Source of the DNA: Desulfuromonas sp. SDB
Lineage (GTDB): Bacteria > SDB-A
Assembly (NCBI GenBank): GCA_001412365.1
Contig: LKUE01000323.1
Location: 1 to 8,194, forward strand
Reading direction: 5' to 3'
DNA: 8,194 bases
The notes under the pieces are model-generated. The model was given only the letters and a program-made list of their open reading frames with translations. It searched no databases and had not been told where the DNA came from. Positions 1,354-7,777 of the stretch are shown here, piece after piece (position 1 is the first letter of the stretch; every line of letters begins with the position of its first letter). Both the position numbers and the translations under genes were made by a program.

Positions 1354-1412
1354 TATTCAAAATTTTTTTACTTTTAAAATTAAAGAAAATTTTTTAATCA
1401 AGGAGAGGTATT

Positions 1413-1673
1413 TTGCCCCACAATATAAATGATTTAAATGAGATGGAAAACAAGATGGTTTTTATTTTATTGGATAGGTTTCAACAAAAAGAAAAAATAG
1501 ATTTGAGCAATGATCAGATGGCGATGATGAGAATAATTGATATTGTCAGGAAATTATCTTCAAAATTAAATGATGATGGGAAAATTTTATTTGAACTTCC
1601 TTTTATAACTGCAGATAAAAACGGTCCAAAACATTTAAAGGAATTAATTACCGCTGATCAAGTTTTAGCCTGA
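1413..1673 (+). CDS. stand-alone DnaK/Hsp70 subdomain IIB mini-protein
   Basis: This 86-residue protein aligns without gaps to the part of DnaK that forms subdomain IIB of the nucleotide-binding domain (roughly E. coli DnaK 225-305, from memory). Landmarks are I-D-L at 29-31, N-D-x-x-A-M at 33-38, L-P-F-I-T-A-D at 62-68 and G-P-K-H-L at 71-75. Nothing else of Hsp70 is present: there are no phosphate loops, no lobe I, no substrate-binding domain and no DnaK remnant in the flanks. Positions matching the DnaK adenine-contacting residues E267, K270 and S274 are Arg46, Ser49 and Asn53, so nucleotide binding is unlikely. The start is TTG at 1413, placed 4 nt after AGGAGAGG (1401-1408); ATG at 1443 is an alternative. 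IIB is the lobe that GrpE grips in DnaK, so a GrpE- or chaperone-interacting role is possible but is inference. A decaying dnaK duplicate is the alternative, although the intact frame and good ribosome site argue against it. Confidence 0.75.
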   Translation: MPHNINDLNEMENKMVFILLDRFQQKEKIDLSNDQMAMMRIIDIVRKLSSKLNDDGKILFELPFITADKNGPKHLKELITADQVLA

Positions 1674-1686
1674 CCTTGTTATCATT

Positions 1687-2349
1687 TTGACCCGATCAAA
1701 TTTAATTCAGACAATTGCAGACACCATTAGTAAAAATTACAATAATCGTCAGTTAATTGTAGCTGTTGACGGTGTGGATGCTTCCGGGAAAACATATCTG
1801 GCTGATGAATTAGTTAAACCGTTAAGCCAGAGAAAATTCGAGGTTTTAAGAGCATCTATTGACGGTTTTCATAATCCCGCAGCAGTAAGGTACCAAATGG
1901 GTAAAGATTCAGCAGAAGGATTTTACCGCTGTTCATTTAATTATTCTGAGTTAACCGCTAAATTATTAAAACCTTTCATCCAGGGAAATAAAGTAGTAAC
2001 TTCGATTTATAACTTCATTGAAGATCATCCGGTAAAATCTCCTGAGATTACAGTAAATTCTGGTATGATATTAATTTTTGATGGCATTTTCCTGCATAGA
2101 AAGGAAATCTGCGGTTTTTGGGATATTTCCATTTGGCTGAAAGTTGATTTTAAGACAGTTCTAAACAGAGTTGTTAAAAGGGATGGTTATTTGCTTGGAG
2201 GAGAACAAGAAATTAAGAAAAAATATTTAAACAAGTATTTGCCTGGGCAGAATTTATATATTGAACAAAGAAATCCTGAAAATATTGCTGATTTGGTCAT
2301 AGATAATAATGACTTTATACATCCAAAGTTGGTGGCAAGCAGGATTTAA
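1687..2349 (+). CDS. uridine-kinase-like P-loop kinase
   Basis: The protein has 220 residues and a Walker A motif G-V-D-A-S-G-K-T at 29-36. It also has a uridine-kinase-type motif 'SIDGFHNPAAVRYQMG' at 57-72, continuing into K-D-S-x-E-G-F-Y at 73-80. A hydrophobic strand ends in D-G (132-133), followed by 'IFLHR'. This matches the bacterial 'uridine kinase family' proteins that carry D-G-F-H-N-P and D-G-x-F-L-H-R. These resemble Udk/phosphoribulokinase and are expected to move a phosphate from a nucleoside triphosphate to a small substrate in the cytoplasm. The real substrate is not established from sequence. An in-frame TAG at 1666-1668 and the lack of ATG or GTG leave TTG 1687 as the only reasonable start. 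It has no visible Shine-Dalgarno site and lies 13 nt after the DnaK-fragment stop, which suggests translation coupled to that gene. Confidence 0.82.
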   Translation: MTRSNLIQTIADTISKNYNNRQLIVAVDGVDASGKTYLADELVKPLSQRKFEVLRASIDGFHNPAAVRYQMGKDSAEGFYRCSFNYSELTAKLLKPFIQGNKVVTSIYNFIEDHPVKSPEITVNSGMILIFDGIFLHRKEICGFWDISIWLKVDFKTVLNRVVKRDGYLLGGEQEIKKKYLNKYLPGQNLYIEQRNPENIADLVIDNNDFIHPKLVASRI

Positions 2350-2371: not shown

Positions 2372-2403
2372 AAGAAGGACTCAATCATGATTGAGTCCTT
2401 CTT
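2372..2403. terminator. perfect 32-nt palindrome, bidirectional intrinsic terminator
   Basis: The two 16-nt halves (2372-2387 and 2388-2403) are exact reverse complements. The stem carries the core GGACTCAAT and an A-rich upstream/T-rich downstream pattern on both strands. It sits between the convergent kinase gene (ends 2349) and TonB-family gene (ends 2417), so it can stop transcription from both sides. Confidence 0.85.
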
Positions 2404-5727: not shown

Positions 5728-6743
5728 ACGATAATAGGTGGCTGTTTTTATTCATTCAGGGGGTGCCCTGTGTTTACCGTTGTAAACACTGTGATTTTGC
5801 ACCGGTTTCAGGATTTAAAACTCTGGATATAAATAAAATAATTGAAATTACTGATGAATTAATCTCCGGGACAAATAAAAAGAATTACAATTTTAAGAAT
5901 TATTCCGTCCATTTAGGTGATTGTGCTTTAAATCATCCCGATTTGCCTTGTTGGATTAGTTATCTGAAAGATAGAAATATCGAAGGATGGCGGAGTATAG
6001 CGGTGGACGGTTTTGTACATAAACCTGTTCAGCAATGGCAGCCGGTACTTATATCCATTCTGGAGAGAGGAACAGAATTTTTAGAATTTACCTTGTACGG
6101 TGAAGGAAAGACACATGACTGGTTTGCCGGTAAAAAGAGAAGTTATGAGTCAATATTAGCTCTGGCTGACCTTTGGCAGTCATTAGGAGGTAAAACTATT
6201 TGGAATCTCTTTGTTCATAAAAAAAATCTTCAACAGATTAGAAATGTTCAGACGGAAATATCAACTAGATTTAAAACCTGTATTGATCTTTCCCTTTGGT
6301 CTTATGTCGGATTTGGAACTGAGATTGAGCAATTGAGATTAGATGTAGATGATATGGAGTTTTTTGATGAAAATTATAAAGATCAATTTGAATCCTATAA
6401 ACCAGAATATAAATGGATTGATGAATTAAAAGAATCCGATGAAATGCCCTATCCTCTTGAGCCAAAAATTGTCAGAATTGTCGTGGACAGTTCACTTAAT
6501 GTCCGTATGCCCTATACCCGCACCGGATTAGGTCATCAGGGAATTGTTATTTCTAAATACGGATCTGAATCAGGGGAAATGATAATTGATAAATGGTTTC
6601 AGGAATATCAAAGGATCTATAGTTCTTATCCTAATATCAAAAAACTTATAGAAAAGTGTGGGGATTTGAAAAGTTCTAAGTTACATTCCAAAAGCAGCAT
6701 TATCAGTAAATGGCTCAGTTTATTTCAGGATTACTCAAAATGA
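5724..6743 (+). CDS. radical SAM protein, unassigned subfamily (start uncertain: ATA 5724 or GTG 5763)
   Basis: The protein carries a CX3CX2C motif (C-V-Y-R-C-K-H-C, bases 5769-5792), the ligands of the radical SAM [4Fe-4S] cluster. A region 'SVHLGDCALNHPDL' sits where the G-G-E-P strand is expected. The middle reads like a partial TIM barrel, and the C-terminal ~120 residues are acidic with no domain I recognise. Substrate unknown. GTG 5763 is the first ordinary start codon in frame, but it leaves only two residues before the first cluster cysteine. It would also remove 'RWLFLFIQGVP', the typical first beta strand, which is coded in frame upstream. An AAGGAG site (5711-5716) stands 7 nt before ATA 5724, so a non-canonical ATA start (339 residues) is my preferred reading. 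Its stop overlaps the DUF4037 start (ATGA at 6740-6743). Confidence 0.78.
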   Translation: MNDNRWLFLFIQGVPCVYRCKHCDFAPVSGFKTLDINKIIEITDELISGTNKKNYNFKNYSVHLGDCALNHPDLPCWISYLKDRNIEGWRSIAVDGFVHKPVQQWQPVLISILERGTEFLEFTLYGEGKTHDWFAGKKRSYESILALADLWQSLGGKTIWNLFVHKKNLQQIRNVQTEISTRFKTCIDLSLWSYVGFGTEIEQLRLDVDDMEFFDENYKDQFESYKPEYKWIDELKESDEMPYPLEPKIVRIVVDSSLNVRMPYTRTGLGHQGIVISKYGSESGEMIIDKWFQEYQRIYSSYPNIKKLIEKCGDLKSSKLHSKSSIISKWLSLFQDYSK

Positions 6744-7777
6744 AAGGAATTGAACTATCTGAAGCTTTTTTCAATAATTGTATTTTTCCGATATTAAAAA
6801 GTAATTTTCCAGAAGTTTTAGATAGTATATCTGCAGCAATATTAGGAGATGGTTCAGAAGTTCTGGGTTTTGATGATCATATTTCTCATGACCATAACTA
6901 CACTCCTCGGGTAATTTTATTTTTGGATGATGGAAGATATGATCAATATGCAGATGAATTGAAAGAAAAATTATATCAGTTTATCCCTAAGGAATTTAAT
7001 GGTTTTAAATTAATGAATAATAAGTACAGAAAATCTTTAGATATTGTTCCTTTGAAAAGATATTTCCTTGATTACCTGGGAATTAGTAATTTTCCAGTAC
7101 CTAACTATGACTGGCTGAAATTAGACGAACAAAAATTATTGGAATTAACCTCTGGAAAGATTTTTTATGTTCCACATGGAAAATTAGAGGAAATCAGGAC
7201 AAAATTTTCTTTTTATCCGGAAGCAGTCAGGTATTTTCTACTCCATCAAAGTTTTGTAAGATTGTCAGAAGTTTGTGGAATTGAACGTTCTATTCTAAGA
7301 AATGATAATATAGCTACTGATTTTTACCGAAGCTTTTTTATTTATTTTTCTATAAAGATTGTACATCTATATAAAAAGCGGTATTGTCCCTACCGAAAGT
7401 GGATGGGAAAAAATCTCATTAATCTTGATGAAGAAGGTTTAAAATTAAAGAAAAAAATTGACTGTCTGGTTAAAAATAATGATCTTCATAAAATTAGGAT
7501 AAAGATTAAAGAAATTTCTGAATTTTTAATGACATTAATTTTCGATGAATTACATTATGAATTTTCGAATCTTGGGGAAGATGAGGAATTATATCTGTTA
7601 AATTTTTCAGATGATATATTCAATGCCTTAAAATCGGAAATTCCTCCAGAATTACTTAATTTATCACCGGTAATATCACCTAAATCATATTGGGGTATGT
7701 TATTTGACCTGGATGGTTTGGGTAGTAGTTTTAGGGGAACATTAATTGAAAATATTGATTTTATAGAGGGAAGATAA
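6740..7777 (+). CDS. DUF4037 nucleotidyltransferase-like protein
   Basis: The protein has 345 residues from ATG 6740. Residues 1-62 match the DUF4037 opening: 'GIELSEAFF', then 'GDGSEVLGFDDHISHDHNYT' (36-55) and P-R-V-I-L-F-L. G38-S39 followed by D45-D46 and D51 looks like the G-S...D-x-D pattern of nucleotidyltransferase-fold proteins, with H-D-H (50-52) typical of this family. The remainder is mostly helical ('FLLHQSFVRLSEVCGIERSI'). The family function is unknown to me; nucleotide transfer to a small molecule or RNA is a reasonable guess. An upstream ATG at 6710 would add ten residues but has no ribosome site. ATG 6740 overlaps the radical SAM stop as ATGA, has CAGGA 9 nt upstream, and puts the conserved M-K-G-x-E-L-S at the N-terminus. 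Coupled translation suggests the two proteins act together. Confidence 0.78.
   Translation: MKGIELSEAFFNNCIFPILKSNFPEVLDSISAAILGDGSEVLGFDDHISHDHNYTPRVILFLDDGRYDQYADELKEKLYQFIPKEFNGFKLMNNKYRKSLDIVPLKRYFLDYLGISNFPVPNYDWLKLDEQKLLELTSGKIFYVPHGKLEEIRTKFSFYPEAVRYFLLHQSFVRLSEVCGIERSILRNDNIATDFYRSFFIYFSIKIVHLYKKRYCPYRKWMGKNLINLDEEGLKLKKKIDCLVKNNDLHKIRIKIKEISEFLMTLIFDELHYEFSNLGEDEELYLLNFSDDIFNALKSEIPPELLNLSPVISPKSYWGMLFDLDGLGSSFRGTLIENIDFIEGR

Follow-up and report, generated by a model that had tools for sequence, protein, structure and literature searches.

Can the part of Hsp70 that exchange factors hold be encoded as a gene of its own? Subdomain IIB is the lobe of the Hsp70 ATP-binding domain that is gripped by exchange factors, and the middle domain of ClpB also contacts the cleft between subdomains IB and IIB of DnaK. 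The question is raised by a short reading frame, here called the IIB ORF, in the window, by which we mean the whole stretch of 8,194 nucleotides that was analyzed. Subdomain IIB was already known within full-length Hsp70/DnaK; what is new, as judged from the sequence, is a natural gene that appears to encode IIB alone. If the gene is expressed and its product folds, the exchange-factor handle of Hsp70 can exist as an independent gene, and the product would be a natural ATP-blind probe for recognition of DnaK by GrpE and ClpB. A subdomain, and not a whole domain, would then clearly have left a multidomain machine. The gene is a singleton without relatives, which limits its weight for now.

The reading frame and its subdomain borders

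We re-checked the frame in the window and collected its features, together with those of the downstream neighbor, in Table 1. The coordinates, the intact frame, the length of 86 residues and the good AAGGAGAGG site given by an earlier, sequence-only reading of this DNA were all correct. The nearest upstream in-frame stop is at 1395 and the ORF's own stop is at 1671-1673, which leaves no room for further DnaK sequence in this frame. Codon usage was coding-like, with a value of 0.19 in the correct frame and lower values in the other five.

Table 1. Positions of the IIB ORF, its parts and its downstream features in the window
Feature	Position	Strand	Basis or remark
Free-standing Hsp70/DnaK subdomain IIB protein	1413..1673	+	86 aa, TTG start, intact frame
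Ribosome-binding site AAGGAGAGG	1400..1408	+	directly 5' of TTG, read from sequence
Region aligning to E. coli DnaK 231-301	1440..1652	+	query residues 10-80, phmmer alignment
Helix 9 (residues 39-53), lacking the nucleotide face	1527..1571	+	identity to DnaK panel
Beta-hairpin, residues 57-80, LPFITADKNGPKHL, retained	1581..1652	+	identity to DnaK panel
P-loop uridine-kinase-like gene	1687..2349	+	PF00485 6.1e-8; PRK07667 2.1e-24
Perfect 14-bp hairpin, palindrome AAGAAGGACTCAATCATGATTGAGTCCTTCTT, between convergent kinase and TonB genes	2372..2403	.	terminator scan, minus-strand flag

A profile search, which the sequence-only reading had proposed as a check, gave a significant HSP70 match. 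The ORF matched PF00012 with an E-value of 2.2e-7 (29.9 bits against a gathering cut-off of 20.6) over profile positions 227-295 of 599, and four DnaK models matched at 1.6e-13 to 8e-11. Solved DnaK structures were also matched by sequence, with E-values up to 1.8e-9. The alignment to E. coli DnaK ran over 71 residues without gaps, as had been claimed. Since subdomain IIB comprises residues 229-306 of Hsc70 (PMC2940730), the alignment offset places the 86 residues at approximately DnaK 222-307, which is IIB and little else. The ends of the ORF coincide with those of the subdomain, and the full nucleotide-binding domain, the linker and the substrate-binding domain of an Hsp70/DnaK chaperone are absent from the 86-residue protein. 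When the host genome was searched with the HSP70 profile, the only match on the window's contig was at 1446-1655, in agreement with the earlier observation that no other DnaK sequence lies nearby.

Resemblance to Hsp70 by chance, without homology, is vanishingly improbable. One helix of the ORF is also similar to the C-terminal arm of trigger factor (42% over 39 aa, E=0.008), but the E-values down to 1.6e-13, the length of the ungapped alignment and the agreement of independent DnaK models already refute a chance origin. The trigger factor arm, encoded on contig C244 of the host genome, aligned with query residues 7-45, that is, helices 8-9 of IIB (DKFAQHHKIELSNEE against DRFQQKEKIDLSNDQ), and the likeness is perhaps one of convergent helix-loop-helix sequence only. 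We rejected the C244 match as a second IIB gene, as it is this arm and the similarity is limited to local helices.

The structure of the protein was predicted with AlphaFold2. With 23 DnaK IIB segments as the alignment, the model had a pLDDT of 89 and a pTM of 0.80, and Foldseek placed it on DnaK lobe II (5oow) with an rmsd of 1.0 A and a TM-score of 0.83 of the query. The predicted protein has the IIB fold, two helices and a beta-hairpin superposing on DnaK IIB, in a manner that depends on the alignment supplied. Without an alignment, two helices and a hairpin were still drawn, but at low confidence (pLDDT 63, pTM 0.43), so that folding of the 86 residues on their own is at most plausible. 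In a viral structure library, the fold was convincingly shared by large Hsp70s only, and no match went past an E-value of 0.001.

The ORF resembles subdomain IIB of the DnaK/Hsp70 nucleotide-binding domain (PF00012, TIGR02350) in its sequence over DnaK 231-301, in its predicted fold (rmsd ~1 A), in the loop DLxxDxxAxxR and in the hairpin LPFITADxxGPKHL. Unlike DnaK/Hsp70, it is encoded alone, without subdomains IA, IB and IIA or the substrate-binding domain, and it lacks the adenine-contact residues and has a more hydrophobic, apparently repacked helix 9. Hsp70 lobe II (IIA and IIB) of E. coli DnaK has likewise been crystallized without lobe I (5oow); that protein, however, is a laboratory construct that includes IIA and binds AMPPCP, whereas the ORF is a natural IIB only and is predicted to bind no nucleotide.

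Pattern of change relative to DnaK

We compared the ORF with a panel of 118 non-identical DnaK IIB segments. Helix 9 (residues 39-53) is the most conserved part of DnaK IIB, with a pairwise identity of 85% within the panel, while the identity of the ORF to DnaK over these residues was 22%. The corresponding values for helix 8 (residues 10-27) were 54% and 16%. Identity of the ORF to DnaK was 51% in the loop (residues 28-40) and 54% in the beta-hairpin (residues 57-80), relative to 66% and 68%, respectively, within the panel. All three adenine contacts were changed (E267R, K270S and S274N), and each of the three residues is invariant in the panel (118/118). Their Hsc70 counterparts, E268, K271 and S275, have been named as nucleotide-binding (PMC2940730). 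The earlier reading had correctly placed the adenine-contacting positions at Arg46, Ser49 and Asn53, and its view that the protein cannot serve as an ATPase is supported. Among the other columns conserved at 85% or more in the panel, 19 of 28 were kept in the ORF. Three positions of helix 9 that are mostly alanine in DnaK became I44, V45 and L48, and the mean hydropathy of residues 39-53 was +0.12 relative to -1.03 for the panel (maximum -0.72), which is above any of the 118 DnaKs. Such a change would be expected for repacking of the helix or for a new interface.

We also followed positions reported as GrpE contacts. These are R261 in E. coli DnaK (PMC2940730) and E236 and Y257 in Mtb DnaK, a double mutation of which blocks both GrpE interaction and refolding (PMC10803776); in our alignment, these two residues correspond to E. 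coli E264 and Y285. The ORF has R40, D43 and F64 at the positions of R261, E264 and Y285, all of which are common choices in DnaK. Beside this region, N282 (N in 104 of the 118 DnaKs) is replaced by E61. With the contact list taken from papers, the kept positions are compatible with a retained GrpE face. The contrast between lost adenine contacts and kept GrpE positions is small-number evidence, with three adenine positions, and the kept hairpin residues may be structural instead of forming an interface.

Short relatives and the proposed role

We found no short IIB homologue in ~400 bacterial genomes (sets of 41, 386 and an overlapping 386), in the phylum, or in GTDB contigs, phages, plasmids and IMG/VR. 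Short homologues in related genomes, which the sequence-only reading had suggested collecting, were likewise not found; at this close range the search was narrow, since the phylum was represented by four genomes and the host genus by this genome alone. Frame length was checked among the hits in the genome sets and GTDB contigs, for the best 80 loci of the IMG/VR alignment scan and for four phage records. All hits with a checked frame were long Hsp70 frames or were cut by a contig end, except for the host trigger-factor match, and the plasmid hits, among the matches listed, were either annotated as dnaK or unannotated. As no relative of similar size was found, any function of the IIB gene is hypothetical. 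PHROG 23470 (106 aa, E=0.07) was considered as a short phage IIB family and was set aside as a chance match; its hits in genomes were mostly frames of 125-150 aa, and none in the host genome reached the cut-off. None of the defence-system models or Rfam families fitted the ORF. Open-licence papers yielded nothing relevant on a stand-alone IIB, a truncated DnaK or a GrpE decoy.

Hsp70/DnaK proteins were seen in huge phages, namely Prevotella Lak-C1 and two uncultured ones (LR756508 and LR756501). These are, like the ORF, Hsp70 sequences outside the chromosomal set, but their IIB lies within frames of 458 to 646 aa and their adenine contacts are intact. The Lak-C1 Hsp70 frame is without its N-terminal part, whether TAG is read through or the standard code is applied.

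The losses on the nucleotide face, together with the retention in the loop, the hairpin and the GrpE-contact positions, fit the idea of an interaction module. Our best reading, which we hold tentatively, is a free-standing, repurposed and nucleotide-blind IIB kept by selection; as the gene is a singleton, selection on the free-standing form is inferred. Two features of the genome support this reading: the host grpE and dnaK genes are adjacent (the full dnaK is on contig C343 with grpE just upstream, at 237-713), and the IIB gene is separated from its neighbors by gaps of 59 and 13 bases, DnaK debris being absent. The IIB copy would fold as a small alpha/beta module and would act through protein-protein contact, independently of nucleotide. 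Its most likely partner would be whatever holds IIB in the context of DnaK, namely GrpE or the middle domain of ClpB, and given a selected interaction module we consider the chance of such a partner to be about one half. Such binding would allow the module to titrate away the exchange factor or to modulate DnaK. It is rather doubtful that the stand-alone IIB has evolved into a ligand for GrpE or the DnaK/ClpB network that needs no nucleotide and serves as an encoded decoy, or as a regulator, in nucleotide exchange, and we know of no description of a chaperone regulator of this kind. The role as an interaction module had been suggested before; the pattern of loss and retention fits it, but the short homologues were absent from the genomes searched.

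Origin, neighboring genes and rival explanations

The sequence-only reading had named a decaying dnaK fragment as the alternative. We ran neutral-drift simulations (n=400) from the panel's real DnaK genes, with stops forbidden, until the best identity was equal to that of the ORF (28/71). When scored with a profile of the 118 segments, the ORF reached 61.4 while the simulations reached 27.2 +/- 7.7 with a maximum of 50.4, and none of the 400 attained the score of the ORF. This indicates that most of the divergence occurred under constraint on the fold, a constraint that could date from the free-standing gene or from a longer ancestor. The chance of 86 stop-free codons at this base composition, once saturated, was ~0.0015. 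The host DnaK was 33% identical to the ORF, among the poorer matches, and carries LPYITAD and GAKHL where the ORF has LPFITAD and GPKHL; the low identity and the missing lineage signatures suggest that the source was probably not the dnaK of the host lineage. That the ORF is simply a decaying copy of the host dnaK, although consistent with a partial DnaK sequence that lacks close homologues, is very unlikely in view of the rejected simulations, the improbable open frame and the poor match to the host protein. The earlier reading had taken a lack of short homologues in related genomes as a sign of such decay, and none was found in the few related genomes searched.

The main rival to a selected interaction module is a stranded remnant, which we regard as possible, if somewhat unlikely. 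A divergent, non-canonical Hsp70 paralogue, perhaps acquired horizontally, would have been selected within a longer protein and recently cut by a deletion, and the surviving piece would be functionless or on its way out. The lack of short homologues and of the lineage's own DnaK signatures favors this explanation, and a recent acquisition or rearrangement fits the finding that neither the IIB gene nor the downstream kinase has an orthologue in three other family members. It requires, however, that both borders of the subdomain were breakpoints, that a good ribosome-binding site was in place and that the parent already lacked all three adenine contacts. In addition, the flanks of the ORF are free of Hsp70 debris, and the other HSP70-profile matches in the host genome are all unlike it. 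The matches on contig C332 and on contig C201 (the latter read as MreB-like) were rejected as relatives because their IIB is dissimilar. Contig C332 encodes a second, divergent Hsp70-like protein of the host genome; its frame is 531 aa long and its IIB region is degenerate.

The upstream neighbor of the IIB gene, across the 59-base gap, is an outer-membrane-barrel-like gene. The kinase gene starts 13 bases past the IIB stop, no ribosome-binding site is visible in front of it, and the hairpin behind it is likely a bidirectional terminator and the probable end of a two-gene unit. With this spacing, the missing site and the hairpin, the IIB gene and the kinase look like a coupled unit, and translational coupling of the two is probable. 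IIB might accordingly be a regulatory or stabilizing subunit of the kinase, or its translation might mainly deliver ribosomes to the kinase start. The same three features and the joint absence of both genes from the three relatives favor such a partnership, which we nevertheless consider unlikely. The kinase gene has a patchy distribution, occurring in 3 of 290 genomes including the host. The other two copies are 39% and 35% identical to it, and we read the ORFs upstream of them as acetyltransferase-like and lipocalin-like, with no IIB gene. A mere leader would also have no need to preserve the IIB fold.

An artefact of assembly or binning, in the form of a chimeric contig or a contaminating organism, is highly improbable. 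The host genome of 3.14 Mb is in 433 contigs, of which the window is contig C323, with an estimated contamination of 3.9%, and for three genes of this contig a search of the family gave no short or close match. Even if the contig were misbinned, however, the stretch of ORF, ribosome-binding site and neighbors is continuous and coding-like. Further along the window (5763-7777), we noted a CxxxCxxC motif close to the N-terminus of a protein that had no Pfam match and was radical-SAM-like by eye; its gene and a DUF4037 gene overlap by 34 bases and are a possible two-gene unit.
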